Part shown: piece after piece, positions 19,025 to 46,870 of the stretch
Numbering within the stretch: position 1 is the stretch's first letter
How the letters are laid out: each line of letters starts with the position of its first letter
DNA from: Oidiodendron maius Zn
Lineage: Eukaryota; Ascomycota; Leotiomycetes; Myxotrichaceae
Direction of reading: 5' to 3'
Length of the DNA: 64,000 bases
Assembly (NCBI GenBank): GCA_000827325.1
Contig: KN832870.1
Location: forward strand, 1,550,001-1,614,000
The notes under the pieces: model-generated
Seen by the model: only the letters and a program-made list of their open reading frames with translations
Database searches by the model: none
Told to the model about the DNA's origin: nothing
Position numbers and translations under genes: made by a program

Positions 19025-19089
19025 ATTTCGAGCAGTAAAAAGGGATTGTTTTAGGAGCAGAGAGGAGGCGGGGGAGGCGCGAGACATGA
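19025..19089 (+). repeat. Left terminal inverted repeat
   Basis: 65 bp starting ATTTCGAGCA and ending GAGACATGA. It aligns without gaps to the reverse complement of 46,806-46,870, with 51 of 65 positions identical by hand count. The outer 10 bp are identical, and the inner 35 bp differ at only four positions; the most divergent part is positions 11-30. A GC-rich GGAGGCG-N-GGGAGGCG motif sits in the inner half and may be a protein-binding site. Confidence 0.82.
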
Positions 19090-19090
19090 T

Positions 19091-19512
19091 TTGGGAGCCG
19101 ATGAAGTTATTTATGTAGAACTATAAGTATAGTATCGTAGGTTGGCTCGAGCTATCTAAAACAATACCCATGCTGTGAGGTAGAAGCTTCTTTCAAATAG
19201 ATCAAACATTATAAAGGAAGAGAATGCTCGTCTGCCAATGGAGAAGATATATCGAGTGCGAGTATCGCAGATTGGCTCAAGTCATCCAAAACAACACTAA
19301 CGCTGGTGTTAGTATTATAAAGGGTGAGGAGAAACATCCGCTAGACAGATGACACCGTAAAAGAGAAGCTTCTAGCAGGGAGAGTTGCTGGCGGATGAAG
19401 ACATGGGCTAGCCCAAGGATTGAAGAGACCGTGTATTTAAAGGATACTGTATAGAGCTGGACCGATCACTTAGGCTTCTTAGTATGGCAAATAAGTTTAC
19501 TCGTGACTCTCT
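19091..19512. repeat. Left subterminal region with a 130-bp-spaced direct repeat
   Basis: Two copies of a 45-bp sequence lie at 19,131-19,175 and 19,261-19,305, about 35/45 identical, and most differences are transitions. Both contain TTGGCTC and CAAAACAA-like cores. Subterminal repeats of this kind are common transposase-binding sites in DNA transposons; the transition bias also fits RIP. The remainder should hold the promoter of the first element gene. Confidence 0.5.
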
Positions 19513-21263
19513 ATGGAGCAGCTAGCGCTCCAAGACGAGGCCCCTCAGCCCTGGAGGTGCATGAAGATCCATCCTAAAACGCATATGCCGTGCAACCGTA
19601 GCTATGCGACGCAATACAATCTCGAAAGGCATCATAACAATATCCATAAGTCGAAGCTGGCGATTATAGCGGGAAATGTGGGGGCGGCGGGGGCTCTTGG
19701 TGGGGTGAGTTGTGGCTCATGTGTTATGGCTTGGAGCTAACGCACGCCACAGTCCAGCTACTCTCTGACTTTACAAGCACAGCAGCAGCCTCTGTCCCTA
19801 CAAGTTCAAAGCAGACATGTAAACCAGGAGCTGCATCAACAGCTACGCAACAATGGCCCAAGTCAAGTCTTCTCGCCGGCCCATCAAGAGAGGTCACTAC
19901 CCACCCCCCTCTGCACCAGACAATACTAACTCTCCGGTGCATTTAGTCATTGGCCTCAGCAAGCCGACTTCCCCCCAGTCCTCCCACACGACAGCCCTTG
20001 TGTACAGCAACTGCCGTCGCCATTCCACACCTACCTACACCCAGTCCTGTCGAAGTATCCCGGGCCATCGAATGGCCCCCTGCTGGTAAAGCGGCCGCGG
20101 CTCGAGGGCTCGCGAGAGAAGCAGCACGTTCCTATGTATACGCCTGAGCTGTCGAAGAAGAACGGCAAGATCGCCGAGCCTAGACAGATGAAGGGGGTTG
20201 GGTGGGTTGCTGCAAAGGCCAAGGCTCGGTTTGAGGAGCGGCATAGGGAGCTCCTGGCTCGCTGGGGACGGACTCCTGGAGACGGGGATGCGTGTCTCCT
20301 CTTGCCAGCCGACTGGACCTCCTTGGAGCCTACGGAGATCATCGAGCTGATGAAGACCAAGAAGTTCCCTAACGGGTCGGAGTCGCGTGTCGTACGTCGC
20401 CCACCTCCCGAATCACACCATACTAAGTCCATCCCTGCAGAAATTCAGTCACCAAGACTATGACACGCAGCATTCTCGCGCCCTGGCCTGGTTCAGCGAG
20501 TGGCCCCGCAGCGGTGCGCAGCTCGACAACCTCGTGGGCTGCAGAGAATATAAGCCCATGGATGGCTCGCACCCGTGCCACCATGCAAACTGCATCATCC
20601 ACTGCCTCTATGAGACCGCAGAGGAGAACGAGGATCGGAAGCTGTGCTGCAGCTGGGCCAAGCAGCAGCGGAAGGAGGGCAAGGATGTCCCGACGAGTTG
20701 CCTACGGCACAAGAGGCCATGTCTGCTAGTGGTATGTAATGTCCGCGGGTATGGAGCCGAGAATAACGCGGCGTGTCTAGAATGCCTCCCTATCGACAGA
20801 GGAGGCCTACCGCGTACAGTTCTGGATCTACTGCCGGGCAGCAGGCCTCACAGCGGTTAACCCTCCCCGCCGCCCGCCCTGGCACGCCGCCGTGGCCTCC
20901 ACGTTCGAGTGGAAATTGCCGCTCCTATTCTCCCCGGACAGTCTGACCTTCGACGCCCCGGCCCGGCGCCCGCCATCAAAGCCGGCCCGAAACCCTCACC
21001 AGCCCTCCCTAGTGTGTGAGTTCTGCGAGAAGATTGTGAGCTATAGTACGATCAGTCATCTATGGTCTCACTTTATCCATTTCCATAGGGGCATAGACCA
21101 ATCGAAGATCCTTCAAGAGATTACCCGCACCGGGTCTAAGTGGAAGGTATACTTGCAGTCGCGTAAGCTCTACGGCCAGGATGGACGGACCTTGGAAAGG
21201 ATCAAGCAGACGCAGCAGGGTGATTTTGATTGGGACATAGTGCTTGGCTGGGGCCTTCGGTAG
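19513..21263 (+). CDS. C2H2 zinc-finger protein with I-PpoI-like His-Me-finger zinc-loop domain
   Basis: Five exons: 19513-19704, 19753-19892, 19947-20391, 20441-20731 and 20781-21263, 516 residues, all joins in phase with short introns. An N-terminal C2H2-like finger uses C16, C27, H40 and H45. Residues 293-353 match the zinc-loop region of I-PpoI-type homing endonucleases (zf-His_Me_endon): C293, then GSHPCHHANC with H303, C305, C310 and H313, then EENEDR with N322, then C328/C329, C346, H349 and C353. In I-PpoI the His of the SH-C-H motif and the Asn of DDN-GR are the catalytic residues; both equivalents are present. A final finger has C435, C438, H449 and H453. As the first gene inside the left TIR, it is a candidate nuclease for element mobility, but many fungal proteins with this domain have no known activity. 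Confidence 0.75.
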
Positions 21264-21613
21264 GTCGGGATCGTTTGAGAAATTTAAGCAAGGTTCGTCA
21301 GATGGTTTAGGCAGGAGATATCTTTAGTATGAATTGATAGAGGCTTCGGGGTCTATCGGCCTTCTCTCCCCATCCTTCCTTACCGCCCTCACTCCCAAGC
21401 TGCACCTAATGTCCCACACTAAAAAAACTCCAAAACATCTCAATACTACTCTTTGTTTCCCGTTCCTGACGACTCCCCTCCGCCTCTCGCATGTCTCTAC
21501 CCTCTAAAATGGCACCCTCAACACCTTTGTCCTCATCTTCGTCGGCAAGTGTAAGCGCAGGAGGTTATTGTAGGAATCCGGGAGAAATGAGACGAGCAGG
21601 GTGCTCATCTCCC

Positions 21614-24600
21614 TCATCTTCGTCTTCCCATGCCGCAAGTATGTCGGGAGGCTTGTTGCTCAAGAAGACGCTTCGCCGCCTCTGTCAACTCATCATCCAT
21701 CTCCTCGTTATCGATGTCCCCGCTTTCCGCACTCTCCGTCTCCGCGCCCTCTGCCTCCTCGCCATCTTCCTCCTCACTATCCGCCTCCTCGCCATCCTCC
21801 TCACCATCTGCCTCACCATCTGCCCCCTCACCATCCGCCTCCTCATCTTTATTTTTCAAATTTTTCTCTCGTCGACTAGAACGCGCGGTGCCAGTACAGC
21901 CCCAAGGCTCAGCCCTCCAACGAGTCCTCTGGCTCCATTTCAAAATAATCTCTTGCCCGTCGTCCCGACCCTGTAGATCCTTACGATCAGGCAACTTGTA
22001 GAAACGCTTCATTTCTTCGTCGGGAGGAAGATGGTCCAGATGCTGAATCGCGGCCCGTTTTAGATCCTCCCCCGGTGATATAGACAACCAAGCTCGGTTC
22101 CAACCCCAGCTTGTCCGCTCTATATTTGATCTCGTAGCCGGAACATCTACATTTGTTGGATACGGGTCGTCTGGATCGAACCGTGTGGTCATCCCCTGGC
22201 CGTGAATAATCTTGCCAAAGGAGGAGCCGAAGATGCACCAGTATGGCATCATCTCTAGCCCATCTGGGGACCGACCGACCCAAAATCCAGGGCTGACCTC
22301 TTGAATACGATCGAGGTAGTTGATAAAGTCCTCCAGGATTAGGGCCTCGATGTGGGGGGTTGTATGTCGAAATTGTCGATTGCATCGGAGATACATCATC
22401 TCAGCGCGATTCTCTATAATGGCCTGGTAGTCGGCGTTGTCATAGTCTTCGGGAATTCCCCACGACCGTTCAGAGAAGGGGAAGACCACCCCATTCCTAA
22501 ATACCATCTCGTGCGGGATCTCTCGGTACTTCTCCTGGCGAAGGATTTCCTCGAACGTCTTGTATCGCCGAGGTAGATTCGCCTCCCAATCGTAATTTGC
22601 CGTGCGAATCCAGGGGATTGAGTCCGCCTCGTCAGGACTGCGCTTGAGAATGTGGTTTCGAGCAAGCCGGTGGCGCGCATTCTCCCGTATGGAATCAGGA
22701 CGGTGGCGATTGCGTACCTTGAGCGGCTGGCCGGTTCGCAAGGACTCGTTAATTTCGTTGACTCGTTCTTGAGGCAGTTGCAGCTGCTGGCGGAGTTCAC
22801 GGCGAACTGGAAACTCGTTCATTGTATCTTCGAGATTGCGGCCCACTTTGGTAATATACTCAAAGTCCTCCCTCGTCTTTCCGTTCCGTGACTCCCTTGC
22901 CAAGGCGAGGACGATCTTTGGCCTACGTCCTAGGAAACGGTTCTTGAATGCTGAGGTGACTATAATATTCGCTACATCCTCGTACCTGATCTTCTTTTCG
23001 TCAGGGTCAAAGTAAATCATAGTGCACCCATCAAGGCTCGCCGTTATAAAGTCGTGGTTCTGGCCGTGGTGTGTTAGGGGGTTATTGGCTGTATTTTATT
23101 AGTTGCTTGTGCTTTAAAAGAGAGGGGGATAGTACCTACCCCTTGGGGCAACAGGACAATACCCAGTTCCTAATTCGTCCTTAAATCCATATGGGTACTC
23201 ATATTTTGAGATAAGTATCGCCTTTAACTTTTCCCTCTCTTTAGCCCGTCGCTCTAGGTTGTGACGGCCCGGCCACTCACGCCGTATACATGCGTGTAGA
23301 ATTCGACGCATCTCTAGTGGAAGGAATGTCGCTTTGGGAGGTGGTTCTAAAAACTCTCTTGCATCAAAGAGTCCTGTCTTTGGGTTATAATAATGGTTTC
23401 TTTCCTGATGCAGGGTAAGTGAGAAGTAAGGAAAGCCCATCCCGCTATTATTATCGCACGATTCGCACCAGCATTCCCACCGTATTTTTTGATGAACGAG
23501 CTGGAGATGCATCTTAAGGCCTGCCGCCATAGAGAAGCCTTTCCCCTTAACATCATCGCAACCGTTATGTCCAATTTGGGGGCAATGGCAGCGTTCTGGC
23601 CTGCAATGATTCCGTTGAATATGCTGGGCAAAGTCGACCAGGCGAATCCAGCCACGCCCAGCATTATTACTGCAATGATCGTCTCCGGTTTGCGAGCAAT
23701 TATAGTGTTGCTGACCGCTGGTATAATGGCACTGTTGAATATGCTGGACAAAGTCGGTCAGGTGAGTCCAGCCACGTCTAGCATTATAATTGCAATTATC
23801 GTCTCCGGTTTGCGAGCAATCATAGCGTTGCTGGTCGTTGCTATAATGGCACTGTTGAATATGTGCTCCAAAGTTAACTAGGTGAGTCCAGCCGCGCCTA
23901 GCATTATTCCTGCAATGATCGTCTCCGACTTGCGAGCAGTCATAGCGCTGCTCATCATCACTGTAATGGCACCGTTGAATATGCTGGGCAAAGTCGACCA
24001 GGCGAATCCAGCCACGCCTAGCATTATTACTGCAGTCGTCTCCAACTTGAGAGCAATCATAGCGTTGCTGGCTGCTGACACTGTAATGGCACTCTCGAAT
24101 ATGCCGGACAAATTCGACCAGGCGAGTCCAGCCACGCCTAGCATTATTACTGCAATGATCGCCTCCGGCTTGCGAGCAATCATAGCATTGCTCATCATCA
24201 CTGTAATGACACTGTTGAATATGCCGGACAAATTCGACCAGGCGAGTCCAGCCACGCCTAGCATTATTGCTGCAACCGTCTCTAGCTTGCGAGCAATCGT
24301 AGCGTTGCTCATCATCACTGTAATGACACTGTTGGATATGCCGGACAAAGTAGAACAGGCGAGTGAAGCCACGTCCAATATTATTACTGCAATCGTCTCC
24401 AGCTTGCGAGCAATCGTAGCGTTGCTCATCATCACTATAATGGCACTGTTGGATATGCCGGACAAAGTAGAATAGGCGAGTGAAGCCACGCCCAGCATTA
24501 TTACTGCAATTATCGTCTCCAGTCTGCGAGCAATTATAGCGTTGCTTATCGTCACTATAATGACACCGTCGAATATGTCCCCTAAAGTCATCTAGGCGAG

Positions 24601-25447
24601 TCCAGCCACACCCAGTATTATCACTGCAATTATCGTCTCCGGTTTGCGAGCAATTATAGCGCTGCTGGTCATCACTGTAATGGTACTCTCGGATATGTTG
24701 AGAAACGCGGTCTAGCGTAATCCAGCCACGCCCGCAGTTACTGTTGCACCGTCTCTCCCCTTTATACGGGCAACGGTATCTTATAACTTTGTAGTGAGTT
24801 TTAAGATGTTTTCTGGCAGTCCCTTGTGTAGCGAATCCATTACCCCAGTTGTTGTTACAACTAATGTATGGGCAGCTAAACCTGCCGCCGGCCATTTTTT
24901 GTATTTGTGAATAAAGGGAGCGGGCTGCTGCAAATTGACCTTGAGTATGTATATGGCCAATATGACGTGAAACACTATCTTTTGTATTAAAGCCTTTGCC
25001 TTCCTTGTTATTGCAACCGTCATGACCGTTCATTGGGCAGACAAACTTGCCGCTCGGCATTTGATCGATCCTAGGAGGGTCAATAAGCTGGAATTCGCTC
25101 TTGTTATTGGCAGGTGCCCCAGGTCCACTAGATCCGCCTGGGAAGACGCCCACTAGATTATCTCCTGTCTCCTTATTATCCTTCTTCTTGCCATTCCTCA
25201 GGCCCTTCTGATCCTTCTCCTTGCCCACCTTCTCTCGTGGCTTATACTCATCCGAGCCCGGCAATGCCTGTTGGCCAGGGAGAGGATCGTAGGGTGTACT
25301 TGTTTCTAGGAGAGATGCTTCAGAAACATCGGGTGGGCCGTTTGACCGCGGTGAGAGGGCAGGTGTCTTGGTAGATCGCCGCTTAGTTGGGCGGTACTCG
25401 TCGTCCGAGGCAGAGTCTATTTGCGTTTTGTATTTGCGTTTGTGCAT
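21614..25447 (-). CDS. 1,260-residue protein with 14 tandem zinc fingers and an unknown C-terminal region
   Basis: Two exons, 25447-23140 and 23088-21614. A 51-nt intron (GTAGGT...ACTAATAAAATACAG) fuses two long frames that would otherwise look like separate genes; the join is in phase (VAPR/ANNPLTHHGQ). The N-terminus is basic. Residues about 137-685 hold 14 variant C2H2 fingers of about 40 residues, consensus C-x6-8-C-x16-H-x4-H (for example CSQTGDDNC...FRGHIRRCH). Fingers 4-12 are very similar, and their residues just before the first His vary. The C-terminal ~480 residues contain conserved-looking blocks (RYEDVANIIVTSAF, SPGFWVGRSPDGLEMM, RTSWGWNRAWLSISPGED) that I do not recognise, then an acidic low-complexity tract. 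It is probably a nuclear DNA-binding protein of the element; whether it is a transposase is open. Confidence 0.75.
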
Positions 25448-26503: not shown

Positions 26504-27716
26504 TCATGGCCGGTCCTGGAATGGCATCTTCATTTCGGCCTTGACCATCCTGGCAACTCGCGCCTTGTGCTCCTCATCAGACTCGTTCTGGACGCGTCGG
26601 AAGCGGGGCTTTTGCTCGATGCTAGAGAACCAGATGTTCTTGCGCTGACTCTTGGGAATGACATTCAGACCAGATGGAAGGACAAGACTGCGGCCATTGC
26701 AATCAATGTTCTCTAGGTATGCGCGGAGATTGGACAGGTCGCTGGCATCGCCATTCTCGAACTCGTACCAGACTTGGTTGGTGTAGAGCCTGCCGCGAGG
26801 TTTGCCGTCATCCCGGTAGTAACCACCAAGGATTCGTGCATTCCCAACCTTGTTCGGGTCTGGGATGATTTGAACCTCGTCGTCGCTGTCATCAATGGTC
26901 ACTGCACGTCCTCGCCCTCCAACAGCACCACCGAAACCACCACGTCCAGAGGATGCACCGTCATGCATGCGACCTCGGAAGGCGGTACTACCGCCAGAGG
27001 CTATGTGAGAGCCAGCAGGAGTGTTCTCGCGACTGTTTCCAATTAATACCTTTCATATGACTGGGATCGGACGTAACATACGAATCAAGGATTTCAATAC
27101 ACTCGACTGGAGAGGTACTGTTCCTTGTTAGCTGATGTGCCCAAGATCCAAGAATCCAAACAATAAATATGCCATGAACTGGGACCTGCCTACAGCCTAT
27201 TGGCCACAGGTTGTTTTATAGACAGAAAAGGAACAAGTCCCTACCTACTTTTGGCCTTCCTGCCGTCCACCTGATCTTGGACTCGTGGACTGCTCTGGAG
27301 GCGCTGCAGATCCTGGGCTAGATCTGGCAGCACCGTTGTTGGATTGCTGTCGCTGCGGAGGAGGGCTGCGCAAGGTAAGATGCAGATCAGAAAACTCAGG
27401 AGATAACTTACGTCTTAGGGCCGAGACTGAGTAGCTTAACTTTAGCATCCCACCTTTAAAGGTTAGAGAAGGAGAGCAAGACTTACAGAGCAGAGTTGAA
27501 GGATCTGACATCAGCGACAAGGCCTTGTTGGAAGGTCGGCCTAGCAAAGATGAGGAGATAATGGCAGAGAGAAGGCAGGAGGGTTCTTACGGCAACGAGG
27601 AAGCTCGATCGTCCTGTCTCTGTACGCCGCTGTAGGGATGTTAACTGACGTTTGTTTGAAGTGAAAATAGGGGGTTTATACGGCAGATTGTTGCTATTGG
27701 AAGGCTGATTAGACAT
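26504..27716 (-). CDS. Seven-exon protein with SUMO-interaction-like motifs, function unknown
   Basis: Exons: 27716-27682, 27629-27591, 27540-27487, 27453-27412, 27365-27249, 27117-27082 and 27032-26504, 283 residues. All six introns are GT-AG and all joins are in phase, which strongly supports a real, intact gene. The N-terminus includes a short helical block (LVADVRSFNSALWDAKVKLL). Two or three hydrophobic-then-acidic stretches resemble SUMO-interacting motifs: VECIEILDS (100-108), VTIDDSDDE (152-160) and VQIIPD (161-166). A Gly/Arg-rich stretch (130-150) precedes them. The C-terminal half (ARILGGYYRDDGKPRGRLYT...YEFENGD...) looks like a folded domain I do not recognise. The SUMO link is inference from motif shape only. 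Confidence 0.72.
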
Positions 27717-29620: not shown

Positions 29621-29979
29621 GTAAGTCAAGGATCAATACAGTGAAAAGCAGTTGGAGGGTGGTTGAGTGATGATATTAGGTCCTGCGGCGGCACTAACAC
29701 TATGGGAAAGCCTCTTCAGGAGAATAGGCGAGGTCTGCACGTCTTAGCCTTACAGCTCGACCGGCTGAGTTTCCATGGTAAAAATGTCGGCGACAGCGAC
29801 CAATGCGAGCGAGAATTGCGCGCGTGCCAATGTGCATCAATCCCTACACGATAGTACTGTATGTGCAAAGTGAAGCATGGTAATAAAGGCATGAGCTAAC
29901 CGTCTTATAGCAGTAGGGAAGAGTTTCTAGAACCTAGCTAAATCTCCACTTTGAGCATACCAAACGAGACTCTTTGAAT

Positions 29980-31308
29980 ATGATTCGACGGCTTGGGGCA
30001 GCCACGCGGGGGGCGCCACATCTCCACATCCACGGCTTCACGATCGATATTTCTGCCCTTACGCCAGAGAAGTACAAGGCATATCCGTACACGGAGGATG
30101 ATTTGGCACGTGTACACGCCATAGTCTCGAGCCTGAAGTTCAAAGACTGGGCTAGCCAACAATCGGGTAGCATTACAACTGCGCAAATTCGAAATTCGCC
30201 TCTATGGAGTCCTACGGCTCTTTGCAAGAGCATGAACTGGGAGTTAAACCTGCTCGACTCGGAATGTGGGTTAGGATTGACCGTTGCAGATATTGTTCTG
30301 CCAAGGTTGCTTGAAAGGATGGTCTCTATATGGGAGAAGAGAATAGAAGTTTCCCATAACCAAAGACGCCCTTCGCTCCCCCATCGAAGAGAAGCACCCC
30401 AAGAGCCAGGAAACGCACATCTTACTATCCGCCACTATCATATTATCGACGATCGACTCGATAGACTTGAAGACTTCGCGCCTGGCGTACAGAATCACCA
30501 GCCGAGCCTTCCTACGAATCCTCTTTTTCGGCTTCTGCATAAGGCGTGGGATAAATGGCTATATAATAGTACCTGGAGAGCAAGAACTGCATTTAGTCTT
30601 TTCCTCCTTCCATGTCTACTTTTACATTTTGACTGGTACTCGAAAACATTTGCCTTTCTTTGGTGGGCCTTTTTATCAAGACTTTTCCCATTGCTTTTGG
30701 GCTTCTTATCATGGATTTGGAAACATCGATCCACATGGATCGAATCTCCAACTATCATCCCTTTGCACGCTACCTCTCCACACTTTATCTCTTCACATAC
30801 TACCTCTTCGGCCGTCTCTCCAACCGTCTCTACTGCAACCGTGACTTCTTCAACCTTCACTCCTTCGACTTCTGCAGCCATTCCTTTGCTCATACTCACG
30901 TCATTGCCAACCTCACTACCACCAAGTTCGGTTCCGCCACATTCATTTTCGCCGCTGCCCTTGAATGACAACTTACCAGTCAAAATCCGCCCTCCTGTAC
31001 AACTCCTATTCTTCTTGGGGCTCCTCATTACTCTGCTTACCCCTGCTGTTCTATTCTGGGGACATATTCAGCGCTGGTCTCGAGGTAAGTGCCTCTATCT
31101 TAATACCTAGCTTGGCAAGCCGATCTTAACATGTCAAATCATAGGGGCTGCTCAGGGAACTAAATGGCGGAATGAGGACGTCAAGATCAATCCAGAAACA
31201 GGAACCAAGATTCAGCCTACGGAAACCCCGGCCTTACAGGAAACGATGATGTTTATGCGGGAGATAGAGCGCATTGATAAGCTGGTCGATAAGGGACCTA
31301 GGTGTTGA
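29980..31308 (+). CDS. Membrane protein, paralogue of the gene at 38.1-38.8 kb
   Basis: Two exons, 29980-31084 and 31145-31308, 422 residues; the 60-nt intron (GTAAGT...CATAG) joins RWSRG to GAAQGTKW in phase. The N-terminal ~110 residues (IDISALTPEKYKAYPYTEDD, FKDWASQQSGSITTAQ, LTVADIVLPRLLERM) align with the N-terminus of the minus-strand gene at 38,051-38,822. Two hydrophobic regions follow: a long one (FSLFLLPCLLLHF...FLWWAFLSRLFPLLLGF, probably two spans) and QLLFFLGLLITLLTPAVLF near the end. Between them is a Ser/Thr/Pro-rich linker. I do not recognise the family. Both paralogues lie in the element and face each other. Confidence 0.62.
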
Positions 31309-31488: not shown

Positions 31489-33225
31489 CTATTCTCTTGC
31501 TCTTATATCTTCCGCTTTAGCATCAGCATAACTAGCATTCTCTCCACCCCAACCGCCTAACGCGGCCTTTTCCTCTCGAAGCACCAAAAGCCCCCTCTGC
31601 CGCTTCTCTGCGTCTTGCTCGCTCAGAGTTTGGAGGAGCTTTATAGCATAGTCCCGCACCGAGTGCCACCAGTCCCGTGTAGCCACTACAGTTTCCCTTG
31701 ATTCTGCTTTTGCCTTGGCGACGTCTCTCTTGGCATCTTTAAGCCTCAAACATGCATTACTGAGCTCTGCTTGCATCTCCTTAAGATTCAGGGATATGCT
31801 ACCAAGCTCTTCTTGCGTCTCGTTGAGTTTTAGGAATACGCTATTGAGCTCTGCCTGTGTCTCCTTGAGCTTTAGGGATATGCTGTTGAGCTCTGCTTGC
31901 GCCTTAATCGCCTTTTCCTCTGTATCTATAAGTCTCCTGGATGCATTTTCGAGCTGTGCTTTCGCCTGGGTAGCGTTTTTCTTCACTTCGTCGAGCTCCC
32001 CAGCTTGGGCAGCCAGCGCGTCGTATTTAGCCTGGACTTCGGCAAGATCCTGCTTTGACTCCGCCAGCTTTTCCTTCAACTTGCTTTCTTGCTTTACTTG
32101 CTCGAGACACTGCTGGTCGTGTTTACTGCGAGCTTCTTCAAGTTCCCAGTACCGCTTGTGCTTTTGCTCACCCTCTAGCCTTTCTTCTTGGGATTGAAGC
32201 TCTCTCCGGTGAGTAGCATTGAGCGTGGCCCGCTCGGTTTTGAGTGCATCATGGTGCTTCTGTTCAATATGGGCTAGTTTTTCGTTGAGGAACCCTTCCC
32301 ACTTCGCATTTAAGTCTTTTACCTTCTTCTCGTGGACGAACTCTTGTCGTCGAAGGCCTGCCTCGAGTTTTGCCTGGCACTCGCCTTCATATTCGCTTTT
32401 TTGCCGTCTGAACTCCTCCCAATTGGCATTTCGTTCCTCGAGATAACGGCTGTCAAGCCCCTCGAACTTTTCGCGTCCGATTTTCAGCTCGTTCTTCAGC
32501 TGCATTAACGCGATATTGCGTTCGTCCGTTAGCTTCTTCGCTTGAGCTTCTAGGTTTTGGCCGTACTCCAAGTCTCGCCGCTGGAGTGCCTCGTGCACCC
32601 TCTGGGCCAATAATTCCTCAAGCTGAAGTTCGCTATCAGGTTGCCGCACCCAATGTTGAGGGTCCTCATCGGCCCCCTGCTCTACAGTTGGCATGTCGAC
32701 AACTTGCAGAGGCAATTGCAAGTTACCCTTCCGGATCCTCTTTTTGTTCTCCTGGTTCGGGGAAGTCGATTCCAAGCGGGTCTTCCTATGCCCGAGGTAG
32801 ACGCTTGATGGTTGTAGTTTCCGTGATTCTCCTGAGACTTCGTCTCCGGCAATCTCAATGCGATGCTGAGGAGATCGACTGCGGCCCCGCTGGGTATTTA
32901 GCTGATCGCTGCAACTCCTGCTGCTTAATATCGTGTCGTCCCTTTGTTCAGCCTCTCGAGCGGGCCCCTCGTCGCAAGACACGGGCGCACTGTCTTTTCT
33001 TACCCGGCGGACCTCAAGCTGTCTATCCAGTCCGCCTTCTCGGCCCACTTCTTCGCTCTCTTCTGGCATATCCGCCAGTTCATCCTGCTTCTCCTGTATC
33101 TGTCCCTCTATCTGCGTATCCGTCTTTTTAGGACCGTGCCAGCGACAGTAGGAGCGCCCTCGTTCGCAGTAGCTGCAGCACGGCGTGCCATCTGCCTTTC
33201 GACCTCCGCAGAGAGGGGAACCCAT
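31489..33225 (-). CDS. Coiled-coil protein with N-terminal Cys/His motif
   Basis: Single exon, 578 residues from the ATG at 33225. The N-terminus has a compact CGGRKADGTPC...C-x2-C...YCRWHG cluster that could bind one zinc. Residues about 60-190 are disordered and charged. From about 200 to 520 the protein is an almost continuous coiled coil, ending in four tandem 14-residue units (AELNSISLKLKETQ and variants, DNA about 31,740-31,890). It is most likely a structural or tethering protein. No motor, kinase or nuclease domain is present. The frame is intact. Confidence 0.65.
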   Translation of the reverse strand: MGSPLCGGRKADGTPCCSYCERGRSYCRWHGPKKTDTQIEGQIQEKQDELADMPEESEEVGREGGLDRQLEVRRVRKDSAPVSCDEGPAREAEQRDDTILSSRSCSDQLNTQRGRSRSPQHRIEIAGDEVSGESRKLQPSSVYLGHRKTRLESTSPNQENKKRIRKGNLQLPLQVVDMPTVEQGADEDPQHWVRQPDSELQLEELLAQRVHEALQRRDLEYGQNLEAQAKKLTDERNIALMQLKNELKIGREKFEGLDSRYLEERNANWEEFRRQKSEYEGECQAKLEAGLRRQEFVHEKKVKDLNAKWEGFLNEKLAHIEQKHHDALKTERATLNATHRRELQSQEERLEGEQKHKRYWELEEARSKHDQQCLEQVKQESKLKEKLAESKQDLAEVQAKYDALAAQAGELDEVKKNATQAKAQLENASRRLIDTEEKAIKAQAELNSISLKLKETQAELNSVFLKLNETQEELGSISLNLKEMQAELSNACLRLKDAKRDVAKAKAESRETVVATRDWWHSVRDYAIKLLQTLSEQDAEKRQRGLLVLREEKAALGGWGGENASYADAKAEDIRARE

Positions 33226-34202
33226 ATTAAGATAATATGGCAAAGGATAGATGCGGAAGATAAACTTGGCAATGAAATTTCCCTGTCACTAACCGAGGGG
33301 TATCCTGATTCGAGTGCAGACGGACGATGACGATCTTGGAAGTCGATCCTGACGGCGGCCTAGCGATGGGAGAGAGATTTGACCTAGAGCATATGTAGTG
33401 CTGTACTTGTGCTGGGCTGCAGCGATGAAAGTGCTTGTATTCTTGGCTAGCTGTCTAAATCTCCTATGCTTTTCGTCTCTATATGCTTGTACAGTCTTGC
33501 TCTCTTCGTTTGCTTTTTCTATACTTCTAGTCAGATATCGACAAGTGCGAAAGAACAAGTGTATGGGATAAAGAAGCCTAAAACCCAAATTAAAAATGCT
33601 ATAGGAGCAAGGCTTCGATGCTATAACCGCCTTTGTATAACGCAACCCTCACCTTATAGATACGCTACTTTATATGTTTCTTTTACAGCCCCTAAATTTA
33701 CTAAGGACCAAGTTAATATACGCCTATTTACCAAGGATTGGATTAAGGTATCTAGAATCTGTAGGACTTTAACAAATTGTAAGTAGAAAGTTCTTGTCTA
33801 AGAAGCATTATAGGGTTCATTAAAAGATTGTATAGAATTATCTACAGGGGTTTAATAGACCTAAATTTAGGAATCTATATATCGCGATAAAATTTTCCAA
33901 ACGTCTTACTGTTCTAGATTATATACATCTCACGAAATGAAATTCTTAACCGACTTAGGCAACTAGCTTCCGCCATGCCATTTTCCTTAGAGAGGATTCC
34001 GTCTATCATTAAGATCTCTATTAACCCGTCCTTACAATAAAGTCGATCCTGGTTTAGTTTCTTATCTACCTCGGAACCCTTATGCCCCGTCTGCTAAAAG
34101 ACCGGACCGAATCAGCAGCAAAGTACTGGAGATGGGTAAAGCGACCTTTGCCCACGAAATCAGAACCGGTGAGCCTTGCACCCTGGGTTAATTCTCTTCT
34201 AT
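33226..34202. other. AT-rich gap inside the element
   Basis: From about 33,420 to 34,060 the sequence is AT-rich and lacks coding signal. It separates the coiled-coil gene's 5' end from the 3' end of the SAP-domain gene. Confidence 0.45.
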
Positions 34203-35114
34203 TTAATAGCCTCTTAGCTCCCGTAATTGACCGCGGATCTCGGTCAGTTGTCCCTGGAGAACGGTCTGCCAATTTTCTAGCTCTTCAATCCTCTCTACTT
34301 TCTTAGCATCGTGCATCCAATCCTCATCCGGCGTTTCATCGACCGTGCTTGCGTCGACCTCGGTGTCCGGCTGTCCGCTACGTGTGCCTTGCGGCTCCCG
34401 CTGAGCCCACACAGCCGGGTCGTCGACATCTGACTCAAAGTCTTCAGAATCTGACTGTTGAAGGACGCTGACCTGGTCCTTGGAGTGGCTATGCAAAGAC
34501 CAGTCTAGGCCTTGAAGCCCACCTCCTATGGTAGCAGGTGCTGTTTTAGAGGGCCGTATCTTAACGTTCGCCTTCTTCCCTCCCCCGTCCCTCTTCTTTC
34601 CCCCATTATCATCCTCCTCGCCTTGCTCACTCTCCCCCGTTCCGTCATCCCCTTCCTCGCCGCCTTCCTTGCTGCCTTTGGCCCTTATGATGTTCCGCTC
34701 CTTGCAATTAACACCGCTCAAAGCTAGGTGACAACCCGTTAGTATACTAGGGACCCAGGACTTCTGCAACATAGGTTATAGCATACACTTTCTCATCTGG
34801 AGTATCGTTAGAACCCTCCTCAGGTCCTCAACCTTATGGTCCTGCTGCCCTTTAAGGCCCCTAGCCTCTAACTCCTTCAAAAGCCTCGGCTTCGTCATTT
34901 CCTTGGTGAAGAAGCCACGAACAACCCTCACATCCTCGGCACTAGCATTTTGCCAGTCCAAATATCTCCGTTGAAGACGACCTCGTAAGTCTGGTTGATT
35001 ACCGCTGATTGGAAGCGAATGTGACTTGAGCAGAGACCGGAGATGTTCGTTCGTGAGCTTGTCAGGCACGGTATTAGAGTAGTAAGGTAGGAAGCCGGCG
35101 CCAATATTCGACAT
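34203..35114 (-). CDS. SAP-domain protein
   Basis: Two exons, 35114-34787 and 34723-34203, 282 residues. The 63-nt intron (GTATGC...ACTAACGGG...CACCTAG) joins QMRKS to LSGVNCKERN in phase. The N-terminal SAP motif (DKLTNEHLRSLLKSHSLPISG followed by LRGRLQRRYLDW) is followed by a second SAP-like motif (KPRLLKELEARGLKG...VEDLRRVL). SAP motifs bind AT-rich or scaffold DNA and are common in chromatin, repair and SUMO-ligase proteins. The rest is acidic and disordered (VSVLQQSDSEDFESDVDD) and ends in a short coiled coil. An in-frame ATG at 35228 would add 38 basic residues. The same two-SAP layout occurs in the plus-strand gene at 36,076. Confidence 0.65.
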
Positions 35115-36075
35115 GGCTGAGAATCTTATAGCCTCTTTTGCAAGAAGCGTAGGATATATCGCCTTTGTAAGCAAGAGTGCGAACTGTGATGGCCTTCTGG
35201 TGTCGAAATGTCGGCCTCTTCTTGTCATCTGTATACAATTCCAGGCAAGTACACCTTCTAGACCTTATATACAACCTTGTTTATACCAATACCAAACTTG
35301 TCTTGTACTTTCTAGATTAGACTAAGAGAATCTATACAAAACTACTGTATTATAAATCTAGAAATCAAGGGAGCAAAATCCCGTTGGTAATATATATAAA
35401 AGAAAACAGTGCTTAGTCTAAGTTAGTCAGAACATTAGTGTTGAAAGAAAATGTTATGTCTAAGCTAGTCGTGCTGTAATTGCTCTTTCAAGCAGGATAA
35501 GTCAAATGACGTGGCAGTATTCTCAATTGTATAACTTGGCGGAAAGCTAGAATAAAGGCGTAATATAGCTTAGGAGTTTGGGCTTAATATATACCAAGAC
35601 AGAGGGCCGGTGCTTACGATACATAGTTTGAAAGGGGACGGCACTAGCGCTAAGTCAGTCTTGAAATTTGAAGCAAGACAATTCAGGTAAGGTTATGACT
35701 ATTTCAACGGTATATATTAGAGAAAACAGAGAACAAAGATATAAGCCCAAGGTGTTAGGACGTCGTGTTTTATATGGCTGGTTTTGCAACCCGCTATAGT
35801 GAGTACGAAAAGTGCAAAGCCCTTAAGACGCCCTAAACCTCCTTTGCCTTTGTCCTAAACCAAATGGCTAGTAGAAGTTCCTCTAACAAGGCAGATATTA
35901 GAATCAAAATCCTGACAAGGTTAGGGGCCGTTCCCTATATATTAGTTGTATTTGCAGGAAGTTCTACATCTACTTTACTACTCAATGCTATCGATACTTA
36001 CAGATTCGCGAACTGTAATGAAAAGCTCGGCATACCCAACACCATCAAGCATCTTTGGCTCCGAAACTGCTCAAT
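35115..36075. other. Intergenic between divergent SAP genes
   Basis: Shared upstream region of the two SAP-domain genes; AT-rich between about 35,270 and 35,860. It is the approximate centre of the nested inverted paralogue arrangement. No gene supported. Confidence 0.45.
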
Positions 36076-36939
36076 ATGCCGGAGTTTCCTCCATCTTCGA
36101 TAATCCCGGAGACTATAGGCAAACCGGCGCTTCAGAAGCGCCTTCATGCCTTTGGAGTCAACTCGGATGGGGAGAAAAAGCTCTTGCAAGTCCGCCTTAC
36201 ACTCGCGGAGCTAGGCCTTTGGCAAACCGACCAGGAGACAGAGGACCTACTCACCCAGTGGTTCTACTACCAGAAATCCGAACTCAAGGCTGTATGTCAG
36301 GAGAGAGGGGTGGCTAATGATGGCACAATAGCACAAATGCGCCGTGCGCTTGTTTGGGACATGGTAGGACGGGGACTTTTGTATAGGAAGACAGCTGATC
36401 AAAACGCCCACTCTGAAGATTCTGGTGAGGAGGCACCCTCACCGATGGTCCTAAAAATGCCAGCGAAGAATGCCATCAAAAAAGTTATCCTTCTCGACGT
36501 CGAAGACTCGACCAGGGACAAGCCACCCAAACCTCTCAAGAAGCCAACAAAAATGGCCACTAGAAAAGTCGTTCTTGCCGACTCTGAAGATTCCACTGAA
36601 GAGAAGCCCCTCGCCAGAGCCAAGCCACCGAAGCCAACAGACAAAGTCATCCAAAAAGCCATTATTCTTGACGCCGAAGATTCAACCGAGGAGCCTTTCC
36701 CTATAGCCAAGCTACCTAAACCTCTTAAGAAACCAGCGAAAATTGCCACTAGAAAAGTCACTATTGATGAGTCTGATGATGCCACTAGAGAGGGGGCCTC
36801 TACCAAATCCAAGACCGGCCGAAAATTATCCCCTAAAATGCCTAAGGTTTGGACGAAGGCTAAAACAGTTAGTGATAGCCGTGAGATATCCCTTAGTGCA
36901 ATCCAAAAGGAGCTTGATATGCTAGTAAAGAAGAAGTAG
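36076..36939 (+). CDS. SAP-domain protein with four tandem SUMO-interaction-like modules
   Basis: Single exon, 287 residues from the ATG at 36076. Residues about 10-95 contain two SAP-like motifs (GKPALQKRLHAFGVNSDG...LQVRL and KSELKAVCQERGVANDG...MRRALVW). The second half is built of imperfect ~30-residue repeats, each with a basic/proline linker and a hydrophobic-acidic core: VILLDVEDS (137-145), VVLADSEDS (165-173), AIILDAEDS (195-203) and VTIDESDD (228-235). These cores match the usual shape of SUMO-interacting motifs with adjacent acidic/Ser residues. SAP plus SIM combinations occur in PIAS/Siz-type SUMO factors, but there is no SP-RING here. A role in binding SUMOylated chromatin is inference. 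Confidence 0.65.
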   Translation: MPEFPPSSIIPETIGKPALQKRLHAFGVNSDGEKKLLQVRLTLAELGLWQTDQETEDLLTQWFYYQKSELKAVCQERGVANDGTIAQMRRALVWDMVGRGLLYRKTADQNAHSEDSGEEAPSPMVLKMPAKNAIKKVILLDVEDSTRDKPPKPLKKPTKMATRKVVLADSEDSTEEKPLARAKPPKPTDKVIQKAIILDAEDSTEEPFPIAKLPKPLKKPAKIATRKVTIDESDDATREGASTKSKTGRKLSPKMPKVWTKAKTVSDSREISLSAIQKELDMLVKKK

Positions 36940-38050: not shown

Positions 38051-38822
38051 CTACAGGGTCGGTAGGAAAAGGATCGATGTGGGTGCATTCTCTGAAGTTG
38101 ATGGACTAGCTATTAAGATTGTAGCAACAGAGTCGCTTGGCCTGACGAATGATGTTGGCAAAGGAGCACCGGTAGGCTGCCTCTCTAACGATCGAGCGTC
38201 CTGGGCGTGGCCATTCACAATACGGGTCAAGAGCTGAGAGGTCGTGTTGGCTACACCCTCTAGGATCCAGGGATGAGAATCATTGAGCCATGTAATAAAC
38301 ATCGCTATCCCGACAACAAGTAGTAACATTGAGACTCGGTGCTTTCCTAGTAGCCAGTGCAAACTACTAACTTCGCTTTCCTGTATATTATCATCCATCG
38401 GTGTGCCCCTCGTTTTATTAACTACCCGGGCTACCTTTACCAACAGCTTCGGGAGTACGATGTCCTCGAGGGTTGTTTCGTTATCGAATGAGGGAAGTCG
38501 AAGGGCCAATATATCCCGCGGCCAACCAAGATAATCGAATACATCCCCAGTCATTATACCCTGACATTGGCTCAAGAGCTCAACGGTTATCCGGTTATTC
38601 TTGCTATACTCGCTAGCCCACGCTTGAAATTCGGGCAGTTTGATGTAAATGCGAATTCGGTCTACTTCTTCGCGGGAGAGGTGCAGGTTGTAATTAGACA
38701 GCCTAGCGAGGTCGATCTTGGCATTGCGGAAAACTACCTATAAAATGGTCATCTAAAGTTGAGTTATAGGAGAGAAATTAACCTACAGTAAGCTCTGCTG
38801 TATTGTTGGATCGTCTAGGCAT
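38051..38822 (-). CDS. Membrane protein, paralogue of the gene at 30.0-31.3 kb
   Basis: Two exons, 38822-38787 and 38737-38051, 240 residues. The 49-nt intron (GTAGGT...TTTTATAG) joins NNTAELT to VVFRNAKIDLARL in phase. The N-terminal ~110 residues align with the gene at 29,980: IDLARLSNYNLHLSREEVDRI with IDISALTPEKYKAYPYTEDDLARV, FQAWASEY with FKDWASQQ, and TLEDIVLPKLL with TVADIVLPRLL. A single clear transmembrane segment follows (VSMLLLVVGIAMFITWL). The protein is shorter than its paralogue and lacks the second hydrophobic region. Function unknown. Confidence 0.6.
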
Positions 38823-42068: not shown

Positions 42069-42388
42069 GTACTATAGTAGGATTGAATTAGTATTCTATT
42101 CTCTATACATAACAACTTCCTCAGGCTACTGCTAGTGTCCAGTTTCTATTAGCCTTGCCTTGGATCTATCGTTGCTACTTAAGCCCTTTGCTTTTCGTCA
42201 TTCCTTCTTTCATCCAAGTGTTGAAGGTTGCAGTCACTTGTACCTCTTTTCATCCGCTCAAAGAGGGATCGGGGGCCTGCCTGGCAAGGCTGTCTTTGCG
42301 GATCAGAGAGCAGTGAAGTATTAAATGCTCGGCTCAGAAGGCTCAGTAGCTACTCCTTGTAGATCTGTGACACAACGATCCCGTCAAG
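42069..42388. other. Upstream region of the aprataxin-like gene
   Basis: 320 bp of mixed composition that should contain the promoter and 5' leader of the following gene. Nothing else recognised. Confidence 0.4.
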
Positions 42389-43144
42389 ATGTACCAGTAT
42401 GCTTGCCAGTCCTATCATGCCGATGCTAACAGCCCTTGCGGCTTCAAGTCAGACCGCAAGTGGAATCTCGATCGCCATCTTGCCACGTTTGAGGAGAGGG
42501 AGAAAGAGAACTACGGAAAGTACGAGGCAGATCTTTTAAAGCCCCTTCCGCTTCATATCTTTGCCAACCAGGATGCTATTGCTGTCCGAAACCGGTACTC
42601 CAAATCCAGCTTTCACGCACTCCTCCTCCCAATGGCCCATCAGAGCCAACTGCCTCCGTTCGAGGCGCTCCGCGACCCCGCCTTCCGCACGCTCGTCCGC
42701 CGGGAGGCCCAGAAGTTGAAGCATATTGTTGCCTCAGAGCTATGCAGGATGTTTGGGAAGTTCTCCGCCCAAGAGGGGGCGCGGCAGGCTGTCCTCAATG
42801 GCCAGGTCGAAGATGTGGAGGTGCTGCCGGCCGGTCGGGACTGGGAGAAGGATGTGCTGGTCGGGGTCCATGCCAGCCCCTGGATGCACCGGCTGCATAT
42901 TCACGTCCTCTCCAGAGACCTGGTCTCTAGAGGCATCGAGTATAAGAGGCACTACAACAGTTTCGCCACCGCATTCCTGATTGATCTAGACGATTTCCCC
43001 CTTACCGATGGCCAGATCCAAGAGCGGGAGCGGGCCCTACAAGCAAGCTTAAAGTGTTGGAGATGCGGACAGGACTTCGGCGATCAGTTCATATCGTTGA
43101 AGGCTCACCTAGCCGAGGAGTTTGAGAGGTGGAAGGCAGAATGA
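42389..43144 (+). CDS. Aprataxin-like HIT-domain protein
   Basis: Single exon, 251 residues. The HIT core runs from about KPLPLHIFANQDAIAVRNRY through SSFHALLLPM to the active-site block VGVHASPWMHRLHIHVLSRD, followed by IEYKRHYNSFATAFLIDLDDFPL and a C-terminal zinc finger (KCWRCGQDF...KAHLAEEFERW, C2HE-like). That order is typical of fungal aprataxin/Hnt3, which removes AMP from abortive DNA-ligation intermediates. The HIT triad reads H-R-L-H-I-H, so the first His is shifted one place compared with H-x-H-x-H. An extra N-terminal C...C...H segment (YACQSYHADANSPCGF...DRHL) is unusual for the family. Its position inside the element suggests a cargo gene copied from a host gene. Confidence 0.8.
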   Translation: MYQYACQSYHADANSPCGFKSDRKWNLDRHLATFEEREKENYGKYEADLLKPLPLHIFANQDAIAVRNRYSKSSFHALLLPMAHQSQLPPFEALRDPAFRTLVRREAQKLKHIVASELCRMFGKFSAQEGARQAVLNGQVEDVEVLPAGRDWEKDVLVGVHASPWMHRLHIHVLSRDLVSRGIEYKRHYNSFATAFLIDLDDFPLTDGQIQERERALQASLKCWRCGQDFGDQFISLKAHLAEEFERWKAE

Positions 43145-43630
43145 TGCTGGTCCGGCTGTGGTGTTGACCACCGAACCATTTGCTTGTTGTGGAGGTGTAT
43201 TGTAGGCTAGCTTCGCAGCATCCGGTGGAACTTTCGCTGCCCGCATCGCGTGCGGACCTGGCCAATTCCTACACCTGGGACAATCTCATGCAGACTTTGG
43301 GTGTTTCCAGATGAACAGTTTCGTCATTTCTCATAGCGTTTTCAATATTGGCAGATTCAGGGTAGAAGCAAATGACATCGCCTCTTCTCCGTCTTGATTG
43401 ATCAAGCAGCAACTACATTGTGGACTCTTCACACCCCTTTGATGTTTGGGCGTCCCAACCCCGGGCCAGTGCTCTCGCTCCACCCGGCCCGATTCGGGCA
43501 GCGTGTTACTCTCAGGGCGGGCCGTTGGAGCCGTCAGAATCCTCGCCGTCAAACCCAACCTTCCCCTTCCACCCCTGCTCGAGCTTGCTATTGCCTTTGG
43601 CAATAGTCAGCTTCACCTCTACCACATGAC
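43145..43630. other. Gap inside the element
   Basis: 486 bp downstream of the aprataxin-like gene. Several overlapping frames on both strands but no domain or splice pattern. Confidence 0.35.
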
Positions 43631-44374
43631 ATGCCTCGCCGTGTGTCTAATAATGCCGGCCATCTTCAGTTCGCCCGAGATCTAGGAGCAAGCGCCCAAA
43701 CATTTTGGTGGTTGATTTACAAGATGTGGGAGGGATGCGAGGGCTTTCTTGCTAGAAACCGAGCCCACCCGCTGTCCGTGGGAGTTCATCACCGCAATAG
43801 CTTGCCCAGGAGCGTGCCCTTCTGGTATTCCTATAGTTGCTTCCTTGTCGGAACCCCCCCTCGAGTGGGAGCCAAACTTACACTACCTGATAATTGGCTT
43901 TGTCCATCGCTAACTTTGCCATTGTGGTACTTGATGACGACGATATTGATCCTACTAAGAGCGCCTGTAATGAACTCATCGGTCGTTTTGAGGGACGAGG
44001 TTTGTGTAGGGACCGGGTGGCAAAGTAGGAGGGTGGTGAGATTGGAGCTTGATACGGATGAGTGTACAAGGGCCTGCAACCAGAACCCAGGGACGATGTC
44101 AGAAGGCCAGCTGCCAGTAAATGGCCTCTGCTTGATGACTTCCCTCCTTCTGAAAACAGCACAAGGCCAATGGAGACGCCAAGCGGCAGTATCCGGGAAG
44201 CGTCTTTACGACGTAAGGAGAGCTGCACTCCACGCAAGATTCAGGTTGATCGCTGCAGGGCTGGGAGGCGACGTACCTACCCGAGCGTGCCAAAACACAG
44301 TCGAGTGCAGAGCGCTGGAGCTTGATGTTGATGAGTGGAGAAGAGCCCGCAGTCGGGAAACAGCACAAGGATGA
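43631..44374 (+). CDS. Hypothetical open frame, possibly decayed
   Basis: An ATG-initiated 247-residue frame. Its first ~50 residues (MPRRVSNNAGHLQFARDLGA, FWWLIYKMWEGCEGFLARN) look protein-like. The later part overlaps another frame that encodes IVVLDDDDID (about 43,920-43,950) and so may be out of frame with the original gene. A decayed repeat is visible in this frame (LELDTDECTRAC at about 44,045 and LELDVDEWRRAR at about 44,319). No domain recognised. Confidence 0.3.
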   Translation: MPRRVSNNAGHLQFARDLGASAQTFWWLIYKMWEGCEGFLARNRAHPLSVGVHHRNSLPRSVPFWYSYSCFLVGTPPRVGAKLTLPDNWLCPSLTLPLWYLMTTILILLRAPVMNSSVVLRDEVCVGTGWQSRRVVRLELDTDECTRACNQNPGTMSEGQLPVNGLCLMTSLLLKTAQGQWRRQAAVSGKRLYDVRRAALHARFRLIAAGLGGDVPTRACQNTVECRALELDVDEWRRARSRETAQG

Positions 44375-44899
44375 GGACTTTGCCAAGCGGTATGTTGACG
44401 CAGCCCTCCCAAGTGCTGTACATCATAAGGATGGCAGCATTCATTAGATGAAAGGGCCGGGTTGATTACGGTAGGTCGGAAGACGACGTAGCTACCCGCG
44501 TACAGACACAGAATATGTATAGAGAGCATCACCGGCCTTGCCGAATCGCTGCCTTTGTACACAGTACCTGGTATACGCAATACTCAGCACAAGGTAATCG
44601 AGAGGAGGAAGGCTGGAAAGAGTCTCACCTGTCGCATGAGATGTGTAGGCAGCCTGGCTTTTGTGGAAACGATCAAGGAAATGCAAGAGGGAAGGTCGCG
44701 TCTCCTTGTCGCGACGGATGTGTGGGCAGCTTGTCATTGTCCTGCTCTTCCCTCCGACCTTCACTCTGCTTCTACATGGCAAGGGCTGGCCTATTTAGCC
44801 CGGCCGTCATCCTCTTCTCCATTCAGGCCCCGGCTCGAGCGCACACTCTCACCACACACACGGCTTCACTTTACAACCTGTCGCCCGACCACTGCCAAG
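44375..44899. other. Upstream region of the HIRAN-like gene
   Basis: 525 bp without a supported gene. The ATG at 44,900 is preceded by a C-rich leader (44,730-44,890) typical of fungal promoters. Confidence 0.4.
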
Positions 44900-45411
44900 A
44901 TGGATGACACGTGGGTTATTGGTACACTGGGTATGTGTTGTTTCTGGCAGTGCAGTTAGGCAAACCGCTTATGTTGTAGGGACCCAAATGGAGCGTCAGA
45001 GCAACGAGATGCTTGATATCGAGAAGGGCGGTACTGTTAGCTACCGGGTCGATGTAAGTATGGTCTTGGCCCTTTACAGAAGGCTCTTTTAATAGGGGTA
45101 ATAGGATGATGAATCAGATAAAGGTCAAATCATTACAATGCTCAACTTGGAAGGAGAGAAGATTGGCAGGGTGTACCCGCGATTGGCCCGGGTCCTTCTC
45201 CCCCATATGGTGAGCCGATTACCCGTATTTAACTGGCTAAGCACGTACTAATAATCTGTAGCTTTCTGGCGAGCTAAGAATGACCGGCACAGTCCAGGGC
45301 GTCTATCAGCAATTCTTGATAGTTATACTAAAGCTCGAGATTAAGGAGGGCAATACAGAGTTAAAGCAGACTTTGCAGAGGCATAATGTAAAGTTTAGCG
45401 ATTCCGAATAG
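44900..45411 (+). CDS. Small HIRAN-like domain protein
   Basis: Four exons: 44900-44930, 44980-45053, 45105-45209 and 45262-45411, 119 residues, with introns of 49-52 nt and perfect phase. The protein begins MDDTWVIGTLGTQMERQSNE and contains MLNLEGEKIGRVYPRLARVL followed by LLPHMLSGELRMTGTVQGVY, which matches the core of HIRAN domains (Rad5/HLTF type: G-x-x-I-G-x-[LI]-P-R-x-x-A...L..ML..G.). HIRAN domains bind 3' ends of single-stranded DNA at stalled forks. Here the domain stands alone, without the helicase and RING found in Rad5. The intact four-exon frame argues for a functional gene. The family call is by pattern, without a search. Confidence 0.6.
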
Positions 45412-46805
45412 GACTAGGGAGGGATTAGGAGTTGGACTTATCAATACAACCTTTCCGCCTGGCTGAACGGGAAGCATGTGTCTAGTAAGGAAGACGGCAA
45501 AGGAGAGAGACGGCAAAGGAGGCTCTTTAGACACTTATTATCAAAATATTACCCTCTCTTGAATTACACTCTATCGCGCACGCCCTTTCTCCTACCCGAA
45601 CCAGCTCAAAACCAGGCTTTAACTCGTCATTAGGCTGATCAGACCCTCAGAGACCCGTTTGCGTTTCGAGGCATGTCTATAATAGTATCCTCTCAAAACT
45701 TGTCCAACACGCTGCCTACACTCCCATCTTCCTATCTTTCCTGTATTCCACCTTCCGCCTTCCACCTTCTTTAACCCTCCTTTCTTCCTGCTATACTTAT
45801 CCACCCTCCCACCCCTTTCCATAATGTTTCTCCTCTACAATACCTGAGATACTGGCGTAAATGCATTGTCGTGTTGCAAATGAAGAGATCGCTACAGACT
45901 TGCTTGTAGACTCGGTCATAGCCTGGATGCCCCAGTTTATTGTATGCATCTTCGAATATGGTTGCTGTAACGCCTTAGGGATGGCCGGTCTACAATGCTG
46001 GCGTAGGTATCTGGGTTGGAATATAAGAGTCCCCGCTTGACTTCGAATGGCGGCTTTGCGTGGTTCCTCTAACTCATCGTTCTCCTCCACGATTTCAAGG
46101 AGCTCTAATGCTCGGCCGTGAGCTTCGGCAGGAGTGCTTGGTTGATTTGACAATGGCGACTAGGCATGCCAACTCGGTGGTGGGCTCCTCTGAAGGATTC
46201 GAGCCGGTTGATTCTGTTATGGCGCCGCGAGATATATCCTTATAGGGCTGGGTTTGGAGGATGGAACTGTAGGTTTAGAAGATGGGTATTTCTACCATCT
46301 CCTCATCAGTTGGTTTGGGCCGCTAGATGCCTGGATGGCTTGAAGTAACTGGCACTAGAGTGCAATCCGCGTCGAGATGATGAGTCTCATGACGTTGGAT
46401 AGAACCTGGTATTGGCTAGCTAGCTAGCAGGGCCAACAGACCCTTCCCACCACAGTTGGTTGTTTTTGCCTAGCTTAAGGGCCGCTAGCATTGTTTGGAT
46501 TTGTTGTATTACAACTGGGTTTGACTATAATACTCCTGGTATAAGATTTCAATTCTTGACTTGCGATATATCTGATCTGGAGGATTTGACTAATATCAGG
46601 AGGTTATTAATGATTGTATAGGACAGCAGATACTATACTAGGACTTATATAATGCATCAAAACGCCTAACAGGTATATAGAAAGTTTTATAAGATAGAGC
46701 ATGCAAGAATTTCTTAGTGCTTCTTAGCTCCCTAAACAAAGGATTTCAAGGTTAGTGTATACAAAGCGTCTTACTTACGATGGCTAGATTAGAGTCACCT
46801 TCAGG
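45412..46805. other. Right subterminal region of the element
   Basis: A minus-strand frame open from about 46,170 to 45,797 encodes LSNQPSTPAEAHGRALELLE and further plausible peptide, preceded by an acceptor-like GCATGCCTAG, but no start or upstream exon is certain. From about 46,480 to 46,750 the sequence is AT-rich and non-coding. The 130-bp-spaced repeat of the left end was not found here. Confidence 0.3.
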
Positions 46806-46870
46806 TCATGTCTCTCGCCTCCCTCGCCTCCTCTTGGCTCCTGCCTCAGGAACTTTTCAGTGCTCGAAAT
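46806..46870 (-). repeat. Right terminal inverted repeat
   Basis: 65 bp whose reverse complement aligns without gaps to 19,025-19,089 (51/65). It carries GGAGGCGAGGGAGGCG on the minus strand. Nine further bases separate it from the last codon of the transporter fragment. Confidence 0.82.

Follow-up and report, generated by a model that had tools for sequence, protein, structure and literature searches.

We analyzed a window of 64,000 nucleotides from the ascomycete Oidiodendron maius Zn (positions 1550001-1614000 of contig C1, KN832870.1, in a genome of 45.9 Mb and 58 contigs), in which a gene for an MFS transporter is split by a large element that ends in terminal inverted repeats (TIRs). 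The N-terminal half of the transporter lies on the minus strand at 46880-47794 (positions are those of the window) and comprises four exons (47794-47627, 47575-47238, 47185-47064, and 47013-46880), which join into 762 nt, or 254 codons, with no stops; it was identified by MFS_1 (PF07690) and by its relatives. The C-terminal half lies on the same strand at 19016-18060, where 318 codons without an internal stop begin with FLLGLTFGGV. The broken codons 254 and 255 are separated by 27,863 bp (19017-46879), of which the element occupies 19025-46870. We take the transporter to be of the DHA2 type, as did an earlier reading of this DNA made without database searches (the sequence-only reading), while the family computed is MFS_1 only.

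A protein search with the C-terminal half (7,999 candidates scored, 410 proteins returned, 120 listed) placed its closest named relatives, among the matches listed, in Pseudogymnoascus (58-63% identical) and Xylogone (one protein, 62%), which suggests a leotiomycete host. Six relatives were then aligned separately to each transporter half. In four of the six (P0002, P0003, P0005, and P0008) the N-terminal half ends in ...ATLM and the FLLGL of the C-terminal half starts at the adjacent residue. P0004 is also continuous over the junction, but starts just seven residues upstream of it, and P0017 lacks about seven residues exactly at the junction. P0002 is identical to the window at 53 of 59 positions of the N-terminal half and 305 of 318 of the C-terminal half (358 of 377 in total), and its first residues correspond to the third intron of the window's gene. 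Because P0002 starts within an intron, it would represent an unspliced frame, which indicates that the DNA of this relative is continuous across the site; as a predicted protein, P0002 is an empty site at the protein level.

The two ends of the intervening DNA match each other in inverted orientation. The left arm (19025-19089, plus strand) and the right arm (46870-46806, minus strand) are 65 bp each and align without gaps at 51 of 65 positions (BLAST E 8.7e-8), with a local alignment score of 74, whereas about 3,000 random placements within the window scored 33 at best; the pair is not among the entries of a repeat listing of the window made with a seed of 12 and a length of 20. Two blocks are conserved between the arms: an outer block, ATTTCGAGCA-x-T-x-AAAAG, and an inner block, GAGGAGGCGNGGGAGGCGNGAGACATGA, which contains two GGAGGCG units. 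Read on the gene strand, the spacers between the arms and the broken codons are 9 bp (TGCCCAACA) and 8 bp (ACCATGAG). The sequence-only reading had held that the two MFS fragments fit end to end and that matching inverted repeats bound an insertion between them, and it had suggested looking in relatives for an intact transporter without the insert. The alignments bear out the fit and the repeats, and the uninterrupted transporter exists at the protein level in the four relatives named above. We conclude that 19025-46870 is almost certainly a single TIR-bounded unit of about 27.85 kb inserted in an otherwise intact MFS gene.

Target-site duplications were sought at both junctions. The longest direct word common to the flanks is CATG (4 bp), which is at chance level (P 0.60 in shuffles), and inspection by eye for duplications of 8 or 9 bp revealed none. 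TTAA is absent within 40 bp on either side, and repeat and self-alignment searches found no terminal direct repeats at the element ends. As neither half of the transporter has yet acquired a stop, the insertion is probably recent; a duplication should therefore not have decayed, which makes its absence informative, though not proof. An inverted pair, CTCATG at 19017-19022 and CATGAG at 46880-46885, sits just outside the arms (6 bp, P 0.038) and is left unexplained. CATGAG is transporter coding sequence, and the window has L (CTC) where the five relatives with a residue at this place have V or I. Just inside the left TIR there is also a direct repeat (19131-19175 and 19261-19305; 45 bp, 78% identical, BLAST E 0.023), with no counterpart at the right end among the matches listed.

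The first gene at the left end, gene 1 (19513-21263, plus strand), points inward and encodes 516 aa in five exons in a splice model made in this analysis. Its modules are a C2H2 finger (below the Pfam cut-off), a region resembling the His-Me nuclease I-PpoI, and a BED finger, which scores 21.2 bits in its exon, above the cut-off of 20.6, and 19.6 bits, below it, in the spliced protein. The exon with the His-Me region matches the zinc-binding loop family PF05551 at E 2.9e-5 (24.7 bits against a cut-off of 27). Aligned to I-PpoI, it keeps all eight of the residues that we selected for comparison (S97, H98, C100, C105, H110, E114, N119, and C125), the cysteines being compared in a role that we presume to be theirs. 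The score of this alignment, 58, was reached or passed by one of 5,000 shuffles (maximum 64), and the runner-up among 491 open reading frames (ORFs) of the window scored 42. Five of the eight (S97, H98, H110, E114, and N119) are listed as conserved residues in the part of the source available (PMC9587614). No homologue of gene 1 was present in 7,999 candidates of about 284-903 aa, a range outside which exon-sized metagenome fragments fall, and a PDB search gave no clear match.

Gene 2 (21614-25447, minus strand; two exons, 1260 aa, again in a splice model of our own) is the largest gene modelled in the element. It encodes C2H2-like fingers in an array made of 120-bp DNA repeats, in which a pattern scan finds six fingers or more, and a 493-aa ORF follows this array. 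The sole homologue of this 493-aa domain among 7,343 candidates is P0001, which is 86% identical and encoded on a contig of 29,202 bp; around 21560-21680, an ending like that of P0001 continues in a frame neighbouring that of gene 2. The domain has no match in Pfam (best E 0.17), NCBIfam, or PHROGs, and its best PDB matches (E 0.61 alone and, with a profile, E 0.042 to a polyribonucleotide nucleotidyltransferase) are not convincing.

This domain is where a hidden engine would most likely sit if the element were an ordinary cut-and-paste TIR transposon whose DDE transposase has diverged, with the nuclease and repair genes as accessories. In favour of this explanation are the long TIRs, which DDE elements typically have, the size of gene 2, and the conservation of its domain in P0001. 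A DDE transposase is also paired with a His-Me nuclease in KolobokP of animals, as far as the available part of its description goes (PMC9587614). The failure of the domain to match any of the three family collections, or any PDB chain convincingly, speaks against a hidden DDE enzyme, and so does the missing target-site duplication at an insertion that looks recent; we consider this explanation unlikely, though it must be taken seriously. KolobokP is likewise a TIR DNA transposon that encodes an I-PpoI-like His-Me nuclease, but according to the same partial source (PMC9587614) it has long terminal direct repeats, encodes a recognised DDE transposase of its own, and is a member of a superfamily that duplicates TTAA; we saw none of these in the element. 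When gene 1 was held against this system, H98, H110, and N119 were found to be kept, with the Pfam match below its cut-off and no PDB chain found.

Several further genes of the element encode proteins that may act on DNA. An aprataxin-like protein with HIT and zf-C2HE domains (42371-43144, plus strand) is the only element protein with a clear PDB match (3spd, E 1.3e-21, one of several matches that we take to be aprataxin-like structures of S. pombe), and its zf-C2HE, HIT, and DcpS_C matches are all above the Pfam cut-off. Aprataxin removes AMP from failed DNA ligations. The host has an aprataxin copy of its own, 51% identical to the element protein over 192 aligned positions. At the N terminus of the element protein there is a possible C2H2-like finger (zf-H2C2_5, E 0.062; a 27-residue BLASTP match to gene 1, E 0.10), and none was seen in the open frame of the host copy. 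A HIRAN-like protein of 119 aa (44900-45411, plus strand; four exons in our splice model) matches PF08797 at E 4.7e-4, below the cut-off, and has no PDB match. One ORF has a SAP domain (34776-35264, minus strand; PF02037, 26.9 bits, above the cut-off of 23.9), and a second, SAP-like ORF of 305 aa (36022-36939, plus strand) matches PF18953 at E 0.0043, below the cut-off.

The remaining ORFs are less easily placed. That at 26504-27052 (minus strand, 182 aa) belongs to no family in profile searches, and that at 31489-33285 (minus strand, 598 aa) has an N-terminal Cys/His cluster and looks coiled-coil-like by eye, with an HGGxSTG domain match at E 0.085 only. The ORFs at 29938-31110 (plus strand, 390 aa) and 38051-38737 (minus strand, 228 aa) resemble each other weakly (BLASTP E 0.10 only), both show hydrophobic stretches by eye, and they may be distant paralogues. 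NCBIfam, PHROGs, and PADLOC scans of element proteins yielded no informative match. Three kilobases of the insert (25-26, 35-36, and 37-38 kb) are AT-rich and resemble the product of repeat-induced point mutation (TA/AT 1.31-1.35, (CA+TG)/(AC+GT) 0.79-1.01), and in the remaining kilobases such ratios are weaker or absent. An RTA1-like gene (48512-49363) neighbours the transporter on the side of its N-terminal half, and beyond it comes an ORF that matches Zn2Cys6 (51991-53133).

We looked for a transposition engine among the 211 stop-to-stop ORFs of at least 55 aa in the insert. The Pfam scan covered 75 of them, including all 27 of at least 150 aa and 52 of the 59 of at least 100 aa, together with two spliced proteins, at an E limit of 1 or 0.05 depending on the batch. 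Nothing in these scanned ORFs could be recognised as a transposase, integrase, tyrosine recombinase, Rep, helicase, or DNA polymerase. They include no match to the KDZ transposase, none to the protein-primed DNA polymerase B and integrase of Polinton/Maverick elements, and no hAT domain, the BED finger being the only feature of the hAT kind. A phage tail match in an antisense frame (E 0.017) is at chance level and far below its cut-off. The TIRs speak against a Helitron, and so does the scan itself, in which none of the ORFs covered matched a Rep or a helicase.

TIR-ended linear plasmids occur in fungi, which lends some support to the idea that an integrated linear plasmid or virus, if not an artefact of assembly or rearrangement, lies at this site. 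The scanned ORFs contain no DNA polymerase or capsid family, however, five scans of viral contigs brought up no relatives of the element, and the TIRs stand at the break of one gene; we regard an origin of this kind as highly improbable.

Among the giant cargo elements of ascomycetes, Starships are the best known, and the element resembles them in its size of tens of kilobases, its many genes, and a DNA-acting first gene in the position that the captain has in the part of the literature available (PMC11623301). It could thus be a Starship whose captain has been lost or has become unrecognisable. The genome does contain DUF3435 (captain) genes or relics, with 22 exon-level matches in a genome-wide profile search; they lie on contigs C1, C3, C6, C9, C11, C20, C25, C28, C29, C37, and C44, and most have internal stops. 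Size and the inward first gene fit a Starship, and one study, in the portion available, reports TIRs in 18 of 20 Starships and direct repeats of 2-12 bp in 19 of 20 (PMC12153272), with which the TIRs and the 4-bp CATG of both flanks could be compared. On the same partial sources, however, Starships always carry a captain, whereas none of the 22 DUF3435 matches falls within the element, and the CATG match is no better than chance, leaving the element with no convincing direct repeat. A captainless Starship is accordingly very unlikely.

Other fungal systems share single traits with the element. ToxhAT is a fungal unit in which long TIRs (74 bp, about 92% identical) surround several genes, but at 14.3 kb it is about half the size of the element and has a hAT-like transposase gene, and the genes of the element do not appear in the available part of its description (PMC6737239). 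The fungal DNA transposons of the KDZ type and those bearing TET/JBP genes likewise carry additional DNA-acting genes, and two KDZ families make duplications of 7 and 8 bp, according to a partial source (PMC12730594); the element differs in having no KDZ transposase or TET/JBP gene in its scanned ORFs. The claim that this gene set is unlike that of the known giant fungal elements thus stands, with no DUF3435 inside the element and no Polinton, Helitron, or KDZ family in the 75 of 211 ORFs. Among the matches listed in literature searches, we noticed no paper that describes this element or a transposon carrying an aprataxin.

A second TIR-bounded copy, which the sequence-only reading had suggested seeking, did not materialise in this genome. 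The inner TIR block occurs, at up to three mismatches, at two genome sites that both belong to this element (none in a control). The outer 18-mer, at up to two mismatches, has 13 sites (5 in a control), of which two are exact and are those of the element; the other 11 have two mismatches each, and none has the inner block. No further copies came to light when the 45.9-Mb genome was searched with 501 bp from each end, with the inner TIR block, and with four of the element's ORFs. Of the features of the TIR DNA transposon order, the element thus has the TIRs at the ends of an insertion, while a duplication, a recognisable transposase, and a second copy were not found in this genome and in 75 of the 211 ORFs.

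These searches bear on the idea that the element is a nonautonomous or composite unit, a TIR pair around captured genes that was mobilised in trans by a transposase encoded outside the unit. Such a history would explain why no transposase was recognised among the scanned ORFs, and long-TIR units with several genes are known in fungi, ToxhAT being an example (PMC6737239, available in part). Since the inner TIR block occurs at no other genome site, however, neither an autonomous partner nor a short relative can be seen, and in our judgement the cargo resembles one DNA-processing set and not a random sample of host genes. We find movement in trans decidedly unlikely.

We therefore favour the view that the element is self-contained and probably mobile by its own genes: most likely it is a giant element that moves itself and belongs to none of the families tested, with its engine unproven. 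A mechanism led by the nuclease is a tentative proposal, on balance somewhat more doubtful than credible. Under it, the gene 1 protein, which unites putative DNA-binding fingers (C2H2 and BED) with a His-Me nuclease motif and is encoded at the place of a Starship captain, would bind the GGAGGCG repeats of the arms and cut DNA, and the finger-array protein of gene 2 would hold the element ends. The element would then be joined to its target by break repair and not by the staggered strand transfer of a DDE enzyme, and its own aprataxin, HIRAN, and SAP proteins may process and join the ends. Joining by break repair would leave no clean target-site duplication, and insertion at a cut by this route is consistent with the absence of one here.

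A number of points weigh against this interpretation. The empty site is seen at the protein level, in predicted proteins, and with a single copy, mobility is read from one event. The matches to His-Me, HIRAN, and the second SAP domain all fall short of the Pfam cut-offs. The alignment with I-PpoI stops at C125, before the second zinc site, and a phmmer search of the PDB with the nuclease exon returned no chain at E 10 or below, I-PpoI included. In the genome-wide PF05551 search, the gene 1 exon scored 19.2 bits and an unrelated, stop-bearing place on contig C14 scored 18.0. A finger-pattern scan found no match at the putative finger of the aprataxin-like protein. The end of gene 2 is in a different frame from that of P0001, its 493-aa domain may be a transposase that escaped recognition, and a short exon among the other 136 of the 211 ORFs could have been missed. 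Finally, we know of no homing nucleases that alone excise TIR elements, and KolobokP, the closest precedent, has a DDE transposase as well (PMC9587614).

The most far-reaching possibility, which we consider quite unlikely, is that the element represents a new superfamily of giant eukaryotic TIR elements that have neither a DDE transposase nor a tyrosine recombinase, in which a zinc finger-guided His-Me nuclease would open the target, an element-borne kit of aprataxin, HIRAN, and SAP proteins would process the ends, and break repair would join them with no target duplication. If this were true, fungi would have a second, unrelated route for moving 28 kb, and because searches based on captains would miss such an element, the practice of searching for horizontally moved gene blocks would have to change. 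The presence of a homing-type nuclease and an aprataxin in one element would also make transposition driven by break repair in a eukaryote directly testable.

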